Program-made: the position numbers and the translations under genes
IMG/VR virus record: IMGVR_UViG_3300009181_000043
Coordinates: 35,123 to 99,122 of that record
Strand: one strand, 5' to 3'
Source: a virus
DNA length: 64,000 nucleotides
Shown: positions 4,430-45,920 of the stretch, in pieces
How positions within the stretch are numbered: the first letter of the stretch is position 1
How the letters are laid out: every line of letters begins with the position of its first letter
The notes under the pieces: generated by a model
Database searches by the model: none
What the model saw: only the letters and a program-made list of their open reading frames with translations
Told to the model about the DNA's origin: nothing

Positions 4430-4942
4430 ATGGTTATACTAGGGTTAGATTCGTCCACATCAGTAACAGGTTGGGCATTTAGAGAGGATAAAAAGATCCT
4501 CTCTGCTGGTTTTGTTGACACCAAAAAATTCGATACAACCAAGGAAAAGACGCAACACGTTATTTCCGTTTTACAAAAAGATCCAAACATGAAGAATGTG
4601 GATCATGTTAACTTGGAGGCAGCACTCAGTGGGTTTGCCGGTGGATTTACGTCACAACAGGTCATTATAACACTAGCACGACACAATGCGGTGTTTGCCT
4701 ACATAATGGAAGAACACTTAAAGAAGAAGGTAAATCTTTTGAGTGTGACCACAATGCGTAAGCATCTGTTTGGTAAGTGTCGTATCAAGGGCATCAAACC
4801 CAAGGAATTTGTAAAACAACAGTTGGAGTCGTTGATGCCAGATGTAATACAGTTCGCCGTATTGAATAAAAAAAACAAGTGGGACGAGCGGAATAGTGAT
4901 ATGTACGATGCTGTGGTATGCGCCATGTACGACGCAAATTAA
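4430..4942 (+). CDS. RuvC-like Holliday junction resolvase
   Basis: 170 aa with RNase H-fold/RuvC signatures in the right order and spacing: D7 in GLDSST, E63 in NLEAAL, and D157/D160 in the C-terminal SDMYDAVV. E. coli RuvC uses D7, E66, D138 and D141, so the catalytic set looks intact. The expected role is cutting four-way and branched DNA during recombination-driven replication and before packaging, the job done in T4 by the unrelated endonuclease VII (gp49). It sits immediately upstream of the primase and the Mre11-Rad50 fusion, consistent with a replication/recombination module. Confidence 0.85.
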   Translation: MVILGLDSSTSVTGWAFREDKKILSAGFVDTKKFDTTKEKTQHVISVLQKDPNMKNVDHVNLEAALSGFAGGFTSQQVIITLARHNAVFAYIMEEHLKKKVNLLSVTTMRKHLFGKCRIKGIKPKEFVKQQLESLMPDVIQFAVLNKKNKWDERNSDMYDAVVCAMYDAN

Positions 4943-39574: not shown

Positions 39575-40738
39575 ATGATACAAAGCAAGTATAAAATTTA
39601 CCTAGACATGGATGGTGTAATTGTGGACTGGGTAAAACAATTTGAAAACTATAGCGGTGGCATGTCACCAGAAGCATATGTATCGTCGCATGGTGGTGAG
39701 AATCGTTATGAACTGGTACATCAAAACAGCCCAGCATTTTATGCTACGGCACCATGGATGCGTGATGGCAGAGTGTTGTACCACTTTGTGTCACAATTCC
39801 CCACAGAAATTTTGAGTCACTCAACCGATCTGGAAAGTACCGATGGTAAGAAACAATGGTTAGAATCAAATGGTATCAAGCTAAAAACTAATCTGGTTCC
39901 CAACAGAGACGACAAAACTAAATTTGCTGGACCAGATGCTATCATGATCGACGACCGGCCGGACGTAATTGATAATTTCACAAAAGCGGGTGGTCAAGGA
40001 ATTTTGCATATCAACGCAACAGATACTATCAATAAACTCAAAGAAATTTTGGGCGTCAAAGAACAGCACAGAATCTACAACAGTATTTTGAATCCCGAAA
40101 TTTTTGAGGGTGAGATTCTGAAACCAGAAGTACATGATATGTTGCTAAAGGTAGCAACTGAGTTCTACAAGAACACAGAATTGACAGCACCAATTGAAGA
40201 CATATACTTTCTGGGTAGCAGTGCTGGATACAACTGGACTCCAACAAGTGACATGGATTTGCATGTTTTGATCGATTTCAAGTTGGTTGATCCAAATAAA
40301 GAGTTGGTAAAAAAGTTGGTGGATGGATATAAAAATAAATGGAATGAAGACCATGATATTCATTATAATGAACATCCGGTTGAAGTGTATATTCAAGATG
40401 TTGATGACGTAAATCGTAGTCAAGCGGTGTATAGTGTGCTCAACAACCACTGGGTCAAGAAACCACAACATGAAAATATTCAGATTGATAAACCAGCAAT
40501 TAAAACCAAATACAAACAACTTGTTCAACAAATTGACAACACAATTACCAGTAAAAATTTGAATGATCTCAAAGATACAGTTAAACGCTTATACAACATG
40601 CGTGAGGCTGGTTTGAGCACAGGTGGTGAATACAGTACCGAGAATATTGTGTTCAAATTATTGAGATCCAGTGGATATATCAGTAAATTAAGAGCCAACA
40701 TAAATTATTTAACTGATACCGATCTTAATAAAGTATAA
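39575..40738 (+). CDS. HAD phosphatase fused to Pol-beta nucleotidyltransferase
   Basis: 387 aa, two domains. Residues 1-165 are a HAD hydrolase with DMDGVIVDW (D11, D13) and IDDRPD (about 124), close to 5'(3')-nucleotidase-type HADs. From about residue 185 there is a minimal nucleotidyltransferase: GSSAGYNWTPTSDMDLHV (G214, S215, D226, D228) and a later acidic strand VEVYIQDVDD. The fusion pairs end dephosphorylation or nucleotide hydrolysis with nucleotidyl transfer. Three Pol-beta-type enzymes are now visible in the window (30328, 31767 and this one). Late expression is expected from the motif 4 nt upstream. Confidence 0.75.
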   Translation: MIQSKYKIYLDMDGVIVDWVKQFENYSGGMSPEAYVSSHGGENRYELVHQNSPAFYATAPWMRDGRVLYHFVSQFPTEILSHSTDLESTDGKKQWLESNGIKLKTNLVPNRDDKTKFAGPDAIMIDDRPDVIDNFTKAGGQGILHINATDTINKLKEILGVKEQHRIYNSILNPEIFEGEILKPEVHDMLLKVATEFYKNTELTAPIEDIYFLGSSAGYNWTPTSDMDLHVLIDFKLVDPNKELVKKLVDGYKNKWNEDHDIHYNEHPVEVYIQDVDDVNRSQAVYSVLNNHWVKKPQHENIQIDKPAIKTKYKQLVQQIDNTITSKNLNDLKDTVKRLYNMREAGLSTGGEYSTENIVFKLLRSSGYISKLRANINYLTDTDLNKV

Positions 40739-40799: not shown

Positions 40800-41291
40800 A
40801 TGGCAGAACTACTAAATCCATCAGAAATCTTCTACACGGCTTTTGAGCCAAAGGTACAAAACCGTTTCATTTTATATTGTGACGGTATTCCATCATTCAT
40901 CATCAAGAAAGCATCTCGCCCAAAGCTGACTCAAGCAGCCAAGGAACTTGATCATATCAACATCAGAACCTTTTACAAGGGTAAGAGTATCTGGGGCACA
41001 ATTTCACTGGAACTATACGATCCAATCGTTCCATCCGGAGCACAAGCAGTTATGGAGTGGGTACGTCTTCACCACGAATCTGTAACGGGTCGTGACGGTT
41101 ACCAAGACTTCTACAAAAAGGATTTGACCATCAATGTATTGGGTCCAGTAGGCGATAAGGTTGAGGAATGGACTCTCAAGGGTTCCTTCATCACCGAAGC
41201 AACATTCAATGATTTGGACTGGAGCAACGACGGTGAAGCCATGAAAATTAATCTGACCGTTCAGCCGGATTATTGCATCCTTCAATATTAA
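40800..41291 (+). CDS. Tail tube protein (gp19-like)
   Basis: 163 aa, the same length as T4 gp19. The N-terminal NRFILYCDGIPSFIIKKASR, the middle strand TFYKGKSIWGTISLELYDPI, and the C-terminal WTLKGSFITEATFNDLDWSN followed by MKINLTVQPDYCILQY match T4-type tube proteins. It forms the hexameric rings inside the sheath. A leader with AAAGGA upstream and a terminator downstream indicate strong, isolated expression. Confidence 0.93.
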   Translation: MAELLNPSEIFYTAFEPKVQNRFILYCDGIPSFIIKKASRPKLTQAAKELDHINIRTFYKGKSIWGTISLELYDPIVPSGAQAVMEWVRLHHESVTGRDGYQDFYKKDLTINVLGPVGDKVEEWTLKGSFITEATFNDLDWSNDGEAMKINLTVQPDYCILQY

Positions 41292-41413: not shown

Positions 41414-42211
41414 ATGAATAATAAAGTAACAGTTCTTTTGCCGGGCGGATTCAAACCACCTCATGCTGGTCATTTGGGCCTAGCCAACAAATTTGCTAGT
41501 CGAGCCGATGTCGAACAGGTGATTGTAATGGTTGGTCCGAGCGAACGAGATGGCGTCAACCGACAACAAAGCATTGCCATCTGGAATCTGTTGCCAACAA
41601 ACCCCAAAGTAAAAATCGTGCCTGTCAACGATGACAGTCCAATGAATGCAGCATTTGGGTATGTGTTTAATTTACCCAAGGACAGCACCGAGACTGTGGC
41701 GTTGGGAGCCAGTGCTAAAAGTGCTGAAGATGCCAAGCGAAGCAAGATATTTTCAGCTGCTGTGCAACGCTACAAAACCAAACCAACCAAAGATGGTGTT
41801 ACTGCACCCACTGGTGTTAATGTAATTGAAATGACGGATGATGCTCCCAGCAACTATGTGGGAAGAATTGATGGTAAAAATGGTCAAAGTATCAGTGCTA
41901 GTACGTTGCGTCAAGACCTGGGTAATGGTGATTTTAAGAATTTTCAAACAAACTATCCCGGTATCAAAACTGGTGTGGTCAAGAGTATCTACGGAATTTT
42001 AACAAAAAAGAAACCATCTATGGACGAATCAAAAAAATCAAAATACAAAGAAATTGTTAAACAAATGATCCAAGAAGATCAAAGTGAGTTTATAAATGCA
42101 CTGGTAGGCCCAGACAAAGACTTTCAGACTGCTCTTGATAAAATCAACAAACGTGCCACGCTCTTGACAAAAACAGCACAAGATGCGGCAAGCAAGACAA
42201 TTCCGAAATAA
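41414..42211 (+). CDS. NMN adenylyltransferase/cytidylyltransferase-like protein
   Basis: 265 aa. The nucleotidyltransferase alpha/beta phosphodiesterase signature GGFKPPHAGH (11-20, HxGH) and the later SISASTLR (about 159-166) identify this fold, which includes NadR/NadM NMN adenylyltransferases and cytidylyltransferases. NAD synthesis or salvage is the common role in large phages; the exact substrate cannot be read from sequence. The C-terminal 65 residues are a charged helical extension. It is read from a late-type motif after the tube terminator. Confidence 0.72.
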   Translation: MNNKVTVLLPGGFKPPHAGHLGLANKFASRADVEQVIVMVGPSERDGVNRQQSIAIWNLLPTNPKVKIVPVNDDSPMNAAFGYVFNLPKDSTETVALGASAKSAEDAKRSKIFSAAVQRYKTKPTKDGVTAPTGVNVIEMTDDAPSNYVGRIDGKNGQSISASTLRQDLGNGDFKNFQTNYPGIKTGVVKSIYGILTKKKPSMDESKKSKYKEIVKQMIQEDQSEFINALVGPDKDFQTALDKINKRATLLTKTAQDAASKTIPK

Positions 42212-42253: not shown

Positions 42254-43060
42254 ATGAGTGACGAAATTGTTCTACAACGCACAGCGGCAGTACCAAAGGC
42301 ATCAACGTTTCCTACTGAGATAATCGATCTTCCAAGTAAAGGTCATTTTTATCCGGCCGGAAGCCCTCTTAGCAGTGGCAGAATCGAACTTAAGTTGATG
42401 ACAGCCAAAGAGGAAGATATTCTTATTAGTCCAAATCTTCTCAAGAAGGGATTGGCTATCGACAAGTTGTTGGAATCACTGATTATTGATAAAAATATTA
42501 AAATTGGTGATTTGTTGCTGGGCGACAAGAACGCATTGATTTTTGCTGTGCGTCGTTTGGCGTATGGTGACGCATATGGACCAGTAGAAATTCAGTGCCC
42601 CAAGTGTACTGCCAAGTCCAAGGAAACTATTGATTTATCACAACTTAAAGAAAAGGAGTTTGATGAAACTCAGTATGAACCCGGCACCAATGTATTTGAA
42701 TTTGTTTTGCCCACAAATAAGGCAACTGTGCAGTTCAAGTTGCTCACTGACGCCGACGAAAAGATTATTGAAAAGGATAATGCTGCATTGGGCAAACTCA
42801 ACAAAGTATCATCCAGTGAAATCACAACTCGTCTAAAGCGACAGATTTTGAGTGTCAATGGTGAAACGGATCCTGTAAAAGTCAAAGGTTTTGTTGACAA
42901 TATGCCAAGTCGTGACAGTCTTGCTCTGCGTCAGCATATTCGCAGCATCACACCAGACATTGATGCCAACTTTAATTTTACCTGTGCCGACTGTGGTCAA
43001 GAAGAAAAGGTAGGTGTACCAATGACGGTACAGTTCTTTTGGCCTGACGCTGGAGTATAA
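42254..43060 (+). CDS. T4 baseplate/tail-assembly family protein (gp26-like)
   Basis: 268 aa. Typical pieces are FPTEIIDLPSKGHFYPAGSP, then LMTAKEEDILISPNLLKKG and FAVRRLAYGDAYG. A zinc ribbon is formed by CPKC (about 115) and CADC (about 244). In other T4-like phages this family is called baseplate hub subunit gp26 or T4 baseplate protein. It precedes the tape measure gene, the place of tail assembly chaperones in other tailed phages. Its last 12 codons overlap a conserved-looking frame (to 43265) that lacks a start, with a TTTTGGC slip candidate at 43037-43043. Confidence 0.6.
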   Translation: MSDEIVLQRTAAVPKASTFPTEIIDLPSKGHFYPAGSPLSSGRIELKLMTAKEEDILISPNLLKKGLAIDKLLESLIIDKNIKIGDLLLGDKNALIFAVRRLAYGDAYGPVEIQCPKCTAKSKETIDLSQLKEKEFDETQYEPGTNVFEFVLPTNKATVQFKLLTDADEKIIEKDNAALGKLNKVSSSEITTRLKRQILSVNGETDPVKVKGFVDNMPSRDSLALRQHIRSITPDIDANFNFTCADCGQEEKVGVPMTVQFFWPDAGV

Positions 43061-43265
43061 ACTACATATTCAGCAAGTTATATTTGACCTTTGCTATCAT
43101 GGCAACGGCGGATTTTTTCCATCCGAAGTATACAGTTTACCTGTGTACCTTCGGAATTTTTATTACAAAAAATTGATAGAAGCCAAGGAAAATGAGGCAG
43201 CGTCACAAAAACAGTCTTCAAGTCAACCAAAGTCGGGTAAAATAGATAGACCTAGTTTCAGATAA
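43041..43265 (+). CDS. Start-less downstream frame of tail-assembly gene (candidate +1 frameshift extension, gp51-like)
   Basis: This frame is open from 43026 to the TAA at 43263-43265. It encodes GLTLEYKLHIQQVIFDLCYH, then GNGGFFPSEVYSLPVYLRNF and YYKKLIEAKE, followed by a polar tail. The YGNGGF-x-VY-x-LPVYLRNFY pattern looks like a real small T4-like baseplate-assembly protein (possibly gp51). No ATG, GTG or TTG occurs before 43143, by which point the conserved part is mostly past. A +1 slip on TTTT (43037-43040) in the preceding gene would join both frames as ...VQFF-GLTLEY.... A rare start such as CTG at 43050 or a sequencing error remain alternatives. Confidence 0.6.
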   Translation, partial: GLTLEYKLHIQQVIFDLCYHGNGGFFPSEVYSLPVYLRNFYYKKLIEAKENEAASQKQSSSQPKSGKIDRPSFR

Positions 43266-43295: not shown

Positions 43296-45920
43296 ATGGC
43301 CGACTCGTATAAAAAAGAACTTGATGATCTTACTGCATCAGCGCAGCGAGAATTTAATAATATTCAAAAATCTGCGGCAAAATCTTTGGAGGAGTTGAGA
43401 AAAAAGACACAATCATATGCGTCATCGTGGAGTGAAGTTGGTAAAAAAATTACAGATTCACTTAGTCCTATTGCCAGTATCAATCGCAAAATCTCTGAGT
43501 TAGAAATTGAAAAAAGCAAGAGTGAACAGACATCGGAGCTACACCAGCGCACAATTGAAAATCTTAAGCAGAAGGAATTGGCAATTACAGCTACCGATGC
43601 AAGACAGGTTGAATTACAGGCACTTTCTCAATCTGGATTGACGAAATCCCAAGAGCGGGAACTCAACCTTCTTGAAAAAAATAGTCAACAGCGGCAAACC
43701 GGCCTCACGGCGATCCGGGACGCCGCCAAGGCAGAAGGAGAAAAGTTGGCGAAGGTCGCCGCACAAACTGCGCTCCTCAAAGCGCAAATTGACACCCAAC
43801 AAAAAAATGCGGCGATTTTGTCGTTCATAAAAGACACATTTAGTAAGATTTATCAGATGGCCGGTGATTATGATAAATTTTTGAGTGATCAAGCAAAAAT
43901 TCTTGGTGTCAGCAAAGACACAATCGATGCTCAATATCAATCGATTCAAAAAAACAACACGGCAACCGACTACAATTTGGCATCCAATCGTCAAATTGTT
44001 GAGGCACAAACCAAGTTGGTACAAAGCTATGCAATTACTGGCCAGGCAGCAGAGTCGATTGCAACAAGCATTGCGCAAACAGCCAAGTCAACTGGTTTAA
44101 CTGTTGATGAAGCAAGCAAACTTAACGAAACACTTGCTGAAATTGGTGGTACATCGTTGGACGCTCAGAAAAACATGGCGGGTTTTGCTATTCAAGCTGC
44201 TAAAGCTTATGGTGTTCCGCTCAATGTGTTGTTGAAAGACGTAATGAATTCTAGCAGTTCTGTGCGATTGATTTTTAAGGGTAACACCGAAGAGTTGATC
44301 AAACAAGCTGCTGAAGCAAGAAAGATCGGAACTAGTTTGGATGCTGCTGCAAAATCAGCCGAGGCATTGTTGGATTTTGAAAGTTCTATTGGTGCCGAGC
44401 TAAAAGCAAGCGCATTGCTTGGTCAAAGTTTGAACTTCAACGAATCTCGTAGATTGGCATTTGCTGGAGATTTGATTGGTGCGGAAAAAGCATTGCAACT
44501 TGAAATTGAAAAGGTTGGTGATCTTGATAAATTAAATTATAATCAACGCAAGGCACTGTCTCAAGCAACTGGTAAACCAATTGAAGAACTACAAAAGATT
44601 GAGACACAAAAGAAAAATCAATTGGAGATTGAAAAGCGATTTCCGCAAGAAGCCGCCAAGTTGCGAAAATTGCAAGAAGAGCTAAACACGATGCAAAAGA
44701 AAAGCAAAGAAGATCGTGACGCTGAGTACAAGAAAATGTTGGATCAACAAAAAGTTGAAGCAGAAAGCGCACTTCTGAATCAGGCCAAGGTAAAGGCAAT
44801 GGATCGTATCGGTCAAGTTCTAAAACCAATTTATGAAAAGATCAACCAGATCCAAGCTGCATTTTACGAATTCGTCGCAGGCCTGGACAAAGGTTGGATC
44901 ATAGGGGGTCTCATATTAACCACATTCGTTGGGATTGGTATTGCAGTTGGCGGCGCAGCCCTCCAGATTTATCTGTTGGGTAAATTTGGTGGTAAAGCAG
45001 CAGAACTTTTGGGAGGAGGTGTAGGCAAGGGCTTGATGCGTCTGTCTGCCGGAGTTCGTACTCTTGGTAAATCTCTTCAAACATTTCCAGTTGGAAAGCT
45101 TATTGGTATAGCAGCAGCACTTGCTATAGTATCTTTGGCAGCTATTGGATTTGCAACCGCATTTCAAATGATGCGAGAAGTAACCTTTGGTGATGCCGCA
45201 TTGCTTGTTGGCTCGTTGACCGCCATAAGTCTTGTATTATTTGTTATGGCCAACGCGGTAACCGCTGCGGCACCTGGGTTTGGAATATTGATAGGTGTTA
45301 TGCTAGGAGTGGCTCTCGCTGCTGTGGGAGTTGGATATGCCATATCGCTGACAACTCCTGCAATCACCGCCGTAGGTGCAGCACTAACAGCTTCGGTACC
45401 AGTATTTGCAACGATGCTTAGTATTTTTATGGCACTACCTGTGGTGGTGCTGAGTGTGGCAGCAGCATTGATTGGACTAGCATTGGCGAGTCCAGGATTG
45501 CTTGGTGCTGCGATCGGTATTGGTGCTGTAGGTGCTGCTATGGTTGCGTTGGGCGTCACACTAGCATTGTTTCCAACCAGTGAGCTAACACGCATTACAA
45601 CTCAATTGGTGGCCCTTAGTGAAGCAGCAGCTGGTATTGGTGTTGCCGCAGCATCGTTGAAGCAATTGTCTGGAATTGAGCTACCAAAAATTGATATTGG
45701 TGGATTAGCAGCAGTTAGTCTGCTGGGTGGCGGCGGCAAAAAAGAAGAAAACAGTGAAATTAAAGCTGGTTTGGAAGCTCTTGGTGCAAAATTTGATGCG
45801 TTGACCAACATGATGGCCAGCGGCGGCATTGTGGTCAATTTAGATGGTACCAAAGTCAACAACGCTTTGGCACGAAGTGCATCAACAAGAGGTGCATACG
45901 GCCAAGCAACAATCGCTTGA
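43296..45920 (+). CDS. Tail tape measure protein
   Basis: 874 aa. The first 500 residues are long charged and Gln/Ala-rich helices; from about residue 510 to 780 there are successive hydrophobic stretches (for example GLILTTFVGIGIAVGGAAL, and a series of Ala/Val/Leu-rich segments), then a short polar end. This helix-then-hydrophobic layout is the mark of tape measure proteins, which fix tail length and later enter the host envelope. T4 gp29 is 590 aa; at about 0.15 nm per residue this one predicts a tail near 130 nm. It follows the tail-assembly-type gene with its candidate frameshift. Confidence 0.85.
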   Translation: MADSYKKELDDLTASAQREFNNIQKSAAKSLEELRKKTQSYASSWSEVGKKITDSLSPIASINRKISELEIEKSKSEQTSELHQRTIENLKQKELAITATDARQVELQALSQSGLTKSQERELNLLEKNSQQRQTGLTAIRDAAKAEGEKLAKVAAQTALLKAQIDTQQKNAAILSFIKDTFSKIYQMAGDYDKFLSDQAKILGVSKDTIDAQYQSIQKNNTATDYNLASNRQIVEAQTKLVQSYAITGQAAESIATSIAQTAKSTGLTVDEASKLNETLAEIGGTSLDAQKNMAGFAIQAAKAYGVPLNVLLKDVMNSSSSVRLIFKGNTEELIKQAAEARKIGTSLDAAAKSAEALLDFESSIGAELKASALLGQSLNFNESRRLAFAGDLIGAEKALQLEIEKVGDLDKLNYNQRKALSQATGKPIEELQKIETQKKNQLEIEKRFPQEAAKLRKLQEELNTMQKKSKEDRDAEYKKMLDQQKVEAESALLNQAKVKAMDRIGQVLKPIYEKINQIQAAFYEFVAGLDKGWIIGGLILTTFVGIGIAVGGAALQIYLLGKFGGKAAELLGGGVGKGLMRLSAGVRTLGKSLQTFPVGKLIGIAAALAIVSLAAIGFATAFQMMREVTFGDAALLVGSLTAISLVLFVMANAVTAAAPGFGILIGVMLGVALAAVGVGYAISLTTPAITAVGAALTASVPVFATMLSIFMALPVVVLSVAAALIGLALASPGLLGAAIGIGAVGAAMVALGVTLALFPTSELTRITTQLVALSEAAAGIGVAAASLKQLSGIELPKIDIGGLAAVSLLGGGGKKEENSEIKAGLEALGAKFDALTNMMASGGIVVNLDGTKVNNALARSASTRGAYGQATIA

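Follow-up and report, generated by a model that had tools for sequence, protein, structure and literature searches.

A two-form tail assembly chaperone probably made by +1 frameshifting at a conserved phenylalanine codon in a group of T4-like phages

The stretch of 64,000 nucleotides analysed here (the window) is part of a virus record of 99,122 bases that may be incomplete. In it, a tail gene and the start-less open frame that overlaps its end very probably encode a tail assembly chaperone in two forms, the longer of which (TAC-NC) would be produced by a +1 slip of Phe-tRNA on a TTT codon followed by T or C (TTT-Y). When the relatives are considered together, we are inclined on balance to go further and to suggest that homologous T4-like tail chaperone genes have switched the direction of their shift at the same Phe-Phe pair, with -1 used by cyanophages and +1 by a large lineage, mostly uncultured and associated with Bacteroidota; that the base before the Phe pair helps to set the direction; and that TTT-Y followed by TGG-CCT is a previously undescribed +1 cassette that acts without a Shine-Dalgarno sequence.

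Organisation of the region

The gene 42254-43060 ends in VQFFWPDAGV*, and its last 35 bases are overlapped by a second frame that lies +1 relative to it (Table 1). This frame opens with CGG at 43026, directly after the stop TGA 43023-43025, runs for 79 codons and contains FGLTLEYKLHIQQVIFDLCYHGNGGFFPSEVYSLPVYLRNFYYKKL in its translation, its first ATG, GTG or TTG being GTG 43143. The preliminary description of this DNA had recorded the frame, its lack of a start before 43143, its overlap with the upstream gene and the sequence TTT TGG C at 43037-43043, and all these coordinates proved correct. The length of the open frame was rejected as evidence, because chance stop-to-stop frames in the other frames of the same stretch reach 77-87 codons; it is conservation and not length that places the frame above chance. 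The site pattern TTYYTTTGGCCT is found once in the window, at this very site, where 0.05 occurrences are expected.

The gene that follows is likely to encode the tape measure protein, as suggested by its position and by its similarity (26% over about 300 aa, 6e-11) to the 'tail tape measure' of Flavobacterium phage immuto; no convincing match to this protein was found in PHROG or Pfam. The location that had been claimed for the second frame, just before the tape measure gene, therefore holds. Between the tail tube gene and the chaperone gene lies a cytidyltransferase-like gene (41414-42211), which gave weak matches to PHROG 395 and Pfam CTP_transf_like, and further upstream the gene 39575-40738 joins a 5'-nucleotidase-like part (PHROG 2643, residues 3-158) to a conserved part (PHROG 36119, residues 168-382). 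No tRNA genes were found in the window.

Table 1. Features of the chaperone region of the window, and in-frame fusions found in other loci
Feature	Coordinates	Strand	Remarks
Tail tube protein	40800..41291	+	PHROG 4542, 1.2e-24
TAC-N, putative T4 gp26-type tail assembly chaperone, 268 aa	42254..43060	+	PF12322, PHROG 150; stop TAA 43058-43060
Start-less open frame	43026..43265	+	+1 relative to 42254
Shift cassette TTC TTT TGG CCT	43034..43045	+	Consensus in relatives TTT TTT TGG CCT
Most likely slip site: TTT in the P site followed by TGG; the tRNA would re-pair at +1 on TTT and GGC would follow	43037..43043	+	Only in-frame TTT-Y of the window's cassette
TAC-C, presumably read after the slip (GGC onward)	43041..43265	+	Stop TAA 43263-43265; predicted fusion TAC-NC 336 aa
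Frame-0 stop TAA	43058..43060	+	Lies within the +1 coding of E-Y-K (GAG TAT AAA)
Likely tape measure protein, 874 aa, presumed chaperone client	43296..45920	+	Position; similarity to immuto protein
TAC-N fused in frame to TAC-C, chromosomal	L228 961-2103; L229 1357-2121; L230 1324-2088		

The upstream gene

The product of gene 42254-43060 matches Pfam family PF12322 (T4 gp26/gp51 family) with 59.5 bits, the cut-off being 24.5, and PHROG 150 'baseplate hub' with 1.1e-17; T4 gp26 and T4 gp51 both match PF12322. Judged by these profiles it belongs to the tail assembly chaperones of the T4 gp26 type (TAC-N), with a presumed chaperone function. In annotations its relatives carry the label 'baseplate hub'. 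In the structure prediction (pLDDT 90) the fold extends as far as the Phe-Phe pair, and the tail WPDAGV has low confidence. The two top PDB neighbours of the model are weak: YqbN (3klu) has Z 5.6 with 83 aligned at 3.8 A, and 2ob9, the tail assembly chaperone of HK97, has Z 5.0 with 85 aligned at 6.4 A. Z values of this size are by themselves no proof of likeness, and a Foldseek search with the same model gave E 1.8.

The shift site in relatives

Two scans of viral contigs gave at least 112 loci, or 113 with that of the record itself, and 95 of these were distinct at the junction (94 relatives and our own). Two scans, one of viral contigs and one with an upstream pattern, kept the best 80 of at least 600 matches, which biases the sample to close relatives, and some of the patterns used lay at the junction (PMTVQFFW; FGLTLEYK, HIQQVIFD) and so favour relatives in which the site is conserved. 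This bias is partly offset by a set of 31 proteins less than 60% identical and by later scans with patterns away from the junction. One of these used an alignment, with a pattern well upstream of the junction, and the other covered bacterial genome contigs; together they added 25 distinct junctions, 24 of which conserve the arrangement.

Among the matches listed, 119 of the 120 distinct loci (our own included) have an upstream gene that ends at a near-invariant 12-mer of the TTTYTTTGGCCT type, with a start-poor +1 frame next to it. The sole exception is L213, where the site reads TTC TTC TGG and the second domain is encoded in the other frame, either through an assembly error or as a real variant; this locus was left out of the counts over 119 loci given below, in which our own locus is included. 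The cassette reads TTTTTTTGGCCT in 94 loci, TTTCTTTGGCCT in 12 and TTCTTTTGGCCT, the type of the window, in 3, while the other 10 are divided among seven rarer forms. The conservation of the slip site for which the preliminary description had looked to the relatives is thus present, in the form of this 12-mer. Its choice of TTT TGG C as the point of slippage fits the cassette of the window but does not describe the family: TTT-TGG at 43037 is the version of the window and a minority form (TTC TTT TGG in 3 of the 119), whereas the element held by the relatives is a TTT then T or C, which stands in either of two neighbouring codons and was found in frame within the last 12 codons of the upstream gene in every one of the 95 distinct loci.

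In the 31 proteins less than 60% identical, the Pro codon (CCT) ranks first and the Phe codon (TTT) second for synonymous conservation among 140 scorable columns; the Pro codon is always CCT, and the second Phe codon is TTT wherever it encodes Phe. A slip at the CCT codon itself was considered and rejected, for L031 has GTT and L070 has CCA whereas TTT-Y persists, and RM378, SP-15 and GXN1 are likewise without CCT at that place. Eight of ten public or annotated phage regions are +1, although RM378 and BRock were assigned by open frame and TTT-Y site only, homology of their second frames to TAC-C not being detectable. As for stimulatory signals, 4-mers that resemble a Shine-Dalgarno sequence precede the site in 22 of the 95 loci and precede 152 of 924 control Phe codons, which is not convincing for such a stimulator, and the search for a conserved downstream RNA structure gave weak folding only (mean z -0.9, 40 loci).

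The eleven loci from genome contigs all belong to metagenome bins. Seven of them bear Bacteroidota labels (Flavobacteriales, Flavobacteriaceae, Winogradskyella, Saprospiraceae, Sphingobacteriales), and the remainder are labelled 'bacterium' (two), Alphaproteobacteria (one) and Woesearchaeota (one). These labels, and the fact that phage immuto infects Flavobacterium, hint at Bacteroidota hosts for the +1 lineage, although Mel-JY01 infects a cyanobacterium.

The second frame

In 67 pairs, the substitutions past the frame-0 stop number 794/427/1850 at the first, second and third codon positions of the +1 frame, most of them thus at the third, and the omega-like ratio of this frame is 0.079. The +1 frame is under strong purifying selection, and both frames are under coding selection. 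In the 111 loci that remain when the 8 of 119 with incomplete +1 frames are excluded from the length and start counts, reading after the site continues for 61-106 codons (median 75) in the +1 frame, compared with a median of 2 codons in the -1 frame.

A +1-frame stop is placed three codons or fewer before the site in 71 of the 119 loci, and 62 of these 71 have no ATG, GTG or TTG between that stop and the residues F-G-L. In an alignment of 35 TAC-C sequences, F-G-L, P and R are invariant, and it is with F-G-L, at the very point of the slip, that conservation of the protein starts. Five of the 111 complete frames are devoid of ATG, GTG and TTG from stop to stop, and an ATG within 12 codons after the slip is present in 9 of 111, at scattered positions. 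The absence of starts that had been expected of the relatives is therefore true in part, 62 of the 111 having none within 30 codons after the slip and 49 having one; since start codons occur in the +1 frames of many relatives, reinitiation may serve in some of them. The preliminary description had also named a normal ATG for the second frame in a relative as an observation that would count against a shift. None was seen at this place in near relatives, but in the far S-PM2 and LR756511 an ATG of the -1 frame stands at the stop. Taken together, the sparse starts, the nearby +1 stop and the conservation that sets in at F-G-L indicate that ribosomes most likely arrive from the upstream frame, and that the second frame would be reached from the first only.

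Against cyanophage gp51 the profile of TAC-C scores 40.2 (E 1.1e-7), where 50 column shuffles reach no more than 20.2, and cyanophage gp51 in turn scores 49.6 (E 4e-10) against the C-terminus of T4 gp51, where the shuffles reach no more than 17.3. The direct comparison of TAC-C with T4 gp51 was not significant (0.13, within the shuffles), significance being reached solely via the cyanophages. By profile comparison, then, TAC-C is a homologue of the gp51 of cyanophages and, by way of that protein, of the T4 gp51 C-terminus. The same profile matches the second frames of SP-15 and LIS04 (2e-7) and of GXN1 (3e-5). The model of TAC-C consists of three helices (pLDDT 86) and found no match in a fold search. 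The TAC-C of the window matched 0 families in PHROG and Pfam; among the 35 TAC-C sequences one matches phrog_634 'baseplate hub assembly catalyst' (3.3e-4) and two match DUF6760 (0.002), a family found in 0 of 5 genomes of genome-contig loci in which it was sought.

In three of the 296 genomes searched with PF12322 (L228-L230), TAC-N and TAC-C are fused in frame at the same Phe-Phe (E 1.9e-4, score 23.6; 50 shuffles reach 15.4 at most). Judged from their translations, which include sheath-like and tube-like frames upstream, these are bacterial contractile-injection-type loci. Such a fusion is another solution beside frameshifting and separate genes.

Public annotations treat the second domain in different ways. 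In immuto (L114 4836-4946) and SP-15 (L120 4755-4874) it is given as a very small 'hypothetical protein' that begins at an internal start, in Mel-JY01 (L115 4749-4985) as a separate gene that begins with a TTG inside the overlap, and in LIS04 (L122) it is omitted.

Direction of the shift

The -1 set of cyanophages comprises L231-L310 (59 distinct loci) and L136. In all 59 distinct S-PM2-like loci NNT TTT TTC precedes the final sense codon of the homologous gene, and the -1 frame, at T_TTT_TTC, provides the long second frame. The second frame has no start codon until at least 40 bases past the stop in 13 of these 59 loci and has one near the stop in 38, so that frameshifting and reinitiation may both work there. 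Atu_ph07 also has TTTTTTC with a -1 frame. In LR756511 (L118, about 4769-4790) the second domain lies in another (-1) frame, with an ATG that overlaps the stop (TAATG), an arrangement that resembles coupled translation.

A T before the cassette, as found in cyanophages, is present in 1 of the 119 loci of the +1 lineage, where 40.3 are expected from codon usage. In the set below 60% identity it is present in 0 of 31 against 11.5 expected (P 2e-8), a P that is post hoc because the comparison was conceived after the column profile had been viewed, and that comes from loci which share ancestry and are not independent. No such bias is seen at the other Phe codons of the same genes, 97 of 335 being preceded by T (expected 107). 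T is also avoided at the 14 TTT-CTT sites (0, expected 5.5); as no classical heptamer is possible at these, the cause may exceed heptamer avoidance. In the tree the -1 and the +1 groups part with a support of 83 on long branches, but LR756511 is placed unresolved among the +1 rows and the tree therefore does not show one single switch.

Proposed mechanism and alternative explanations

When the upstream gene is decoded normally, the short form, TAC-N, would result. A presumed fraction of the ribosomes would slip by +1 at TTC-TTT-TGG-CCT, when the P site holds Phe-tRNA on TTT and the A site holds TGG, presumably a slow Trp codon; the tRNA would re-pair on TTT and GGC would be read next. The analogy with prfB suggests that TGG acts here as a slow Trp codon in the place of the TGA of that gene. 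The slipped ribosomes would continue to TAC-NC, in which a C-terminal helical domain encoded in the +1 frame only is added. On the model of lambda gpG/gpGT, the short form may be plentiful and the long form scarce, and together they may coat the tape measure protein and recruit the tail tube subunits. The candidate +1 frameshift of the preliminary description is supported in this by the conserved site, the conserved +1 frame with few or no starts, the homology to gp51 and the in-frame fusions found elsewhere. In T4 the two forms are separate genes, and frameshifting is therefore not universal in the family.

A -2 slip would also lead into the frame of TAC-C and give the same fusion, longer by one residue; phage Mu is said to use a -2 shift. 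The poly-T sites TTTTTTTGG, with which 95 of the 119 loci begin (94 TTTTTTTGGCCT and variants), would allow the Phe-tRNA to re-pair two bases back, and in LIS04 (TTT TTT AGT) it would re-pair better at -2 if the second codon slips, although the first TTT there has T next to it and fits +1. Elsewhere the -2 slip meets with difficulties, for in the window (TTC TTT TGG), GXN1 (TTC TTT CGT) and BRock (CTG TTT CGC) it leads to a mid-codon mismatch on TCT or TGT; at the window's own site the Phe-tRNA would land on TCT, whereas +1 gives TTT or TTC. All the sites are compatible with a +1 slip that carries the Phe-tRNA from TTT to TTT or TTC, and in-frame TTT-Y is the one element common to all 95 loci tested. 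We therefore regard the -2 slip as improbable. Slippage of the RNA polymerase on the T run would supply an edited mRNA and no ribosomal shift would be needed. Most sites do have runs of seven T (94 of 119 are TTTTTTTGGCCT), but the run of the window is of four T (CTTTTGG) and the 12 loci with TTTCTTTGGCCT have runs of three, so that we give this explanation very little weight, less than either the -2 slip or reinitiation.

TAC-C might instead be a separate protein, made by reinitiation or from a non-AUG start such as CTG 43050 or ATT 43068 after the upstream TAA. An internal AUU start is reportedly used in T4 gene 26, a GGAG at 43052-43055 stands 12 bases 5' of ATT 43068, and the ATG at the stop in the own second frames of the distant S-PM2 and LR756511 points the same way. 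Yet the conservation of the +1 frame starts at the invariant F-G-L of the 35 sequences, upstream of both CTG 43050 and ATT 43068, and often just after a +1 stop (1-3 codons before F-G-L in 71 of 119); the near-invariant TTT and CCT codons would be left unexplained, and L228-L230 are fused in frame at the same junction. A separate protein thus seems to us quite unlikely, rather more so than a -2 slip. Last, the window comes from a single consensus genome, in which a sequencing error or a decayed gene could imitate a broken frame, but the same break and site recur in 119 distinct loci from many metagenomes (among the matches listed) and selection acts on both frames, which makes this the least credible explanation, with a chance close to nil. 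The +1 slip of Phe-tRNA on TTT-Y remains the reading that we prefer.

Significance

Frameshifted T4-like chaperones are already known, and what we infer to be new here is the opposite direction of the shift and the slip site. At the level of titles and abstract openings, in a literature whose subscription papers are largely beyond reach, we found no +1 shift in genes of the gp26/gp51 type, nor any report of the TTT-Y/TGG-CCT cassette or of its mirror relation to the -1 site of cyanophages.

A widespread T4-like group thus appears to shift by +1 at a near-invariant 12-base cassette, and its cyanophage relatives by -1 at the homologous place. With this natural +1/-1 pair one can test what determines in which direction ribosomes slip at a Phe-Phe run, and also by what route a lineage that shifts by -1 can come to shift by +1, to have separate genes (T4) or to carry an in-frame fusion (contractile-injection-type loci). 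There is a practical side as well: public annotations truncate the second domain or lack it (immuto, SP-15, LIS04) and label the first 'baseplate hub'.

Comparison with known systems

Frameshifting in tail chaperone genes is textbook knowledge and has mostly been described as -1, with T4 long the exception. Vladimirov, Gautam and Davidson reportedly described in 2022 conserved frameshifting in several T4-like groups, T4 itself having the separate genes 26 and 51. According to the accessible parts of PMC10885494 and PMC12846349, T4-like chaperones of the gp26/gp51 type, some of them frameshifted, were published in 2022, and the second of these sources describes the T4-like signals as poly-T -1 sites. 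The window resembles T4 gp26/gp51 in that its N-domain matches PF12322 and TAC-C appears related to the gp51 C-terminus via the cyanophage profile. Unlike the -1 poly-T sites of T4-like phages, it would shift by +1 at TTT-Y with TGG CCT, within a mostly uncultured clade, and unlike the separate genes of T4 it has a single match in its own record (which may be incomplete), the second frame overlapping the first. With the cyanophages of the S-PM2 type it shares a homologous TAC-C and the same Phe-Phe at the junction, but its site has neither T_TTT_TTC nor the -1 frame.

Among known +1 shifts, those of Listeria phage PSA had been cited in the preliminary description as a parallel. PSA does use +1, but as far as the accessible part of PMC5009743 tells, it does so in cps (capsid) and tsh (tail-shaft), on a proline CCC codon with a stop or pseudoknot, and not in a chaperone gene. 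The likeness is thus limited to a +1 programmed shift in phage structural genes, the genes being different and the window having no CCC slip next to a stop or pseudoknot. The nearest chaperone case given in that part of the review is the archaeal myovirus HSTV-2, whose tail chaperone shift is called 'very likely +1' (PMC5009743), and to which the window may be likened by this description. A +1 slip at CUU_U and UUU is discussed, in the accessible part of PMC10885494, for the context of E. coli prfB (RF2). With prfB (CTT TGA C) the window has in common a P-site UUU or CUU followed by UG and a purine, and the +1 direction; it differs in having the sense codon TGG in place of the stop and in the absence of a conserved Shine-Dalgarno stimulator.

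A parallel in organisation is offered by lambda gpG/gpGT, where a short protein and a version of it lengthened by frameshifting are described as encoded immediately ahead of the tape measure gene (PMC5009743, in part; Levin 1993; Xu 2004). As in lambda, two overlapping frames lie directly upstream of the tape measure gene, an order also found in immuto, SP-15 and LIS04; a conserved slippery site stands at the end of the first frame; and the second frame, which is under coding selection, would by comparison be reached from the first. The product like G/GT that had been supposed for this T4-like group is in agreement with the paired frames, the conserved site and the coding selection, with the difference that lambda shifts by -1 at a canonical heptamer and the window would shift by +1.
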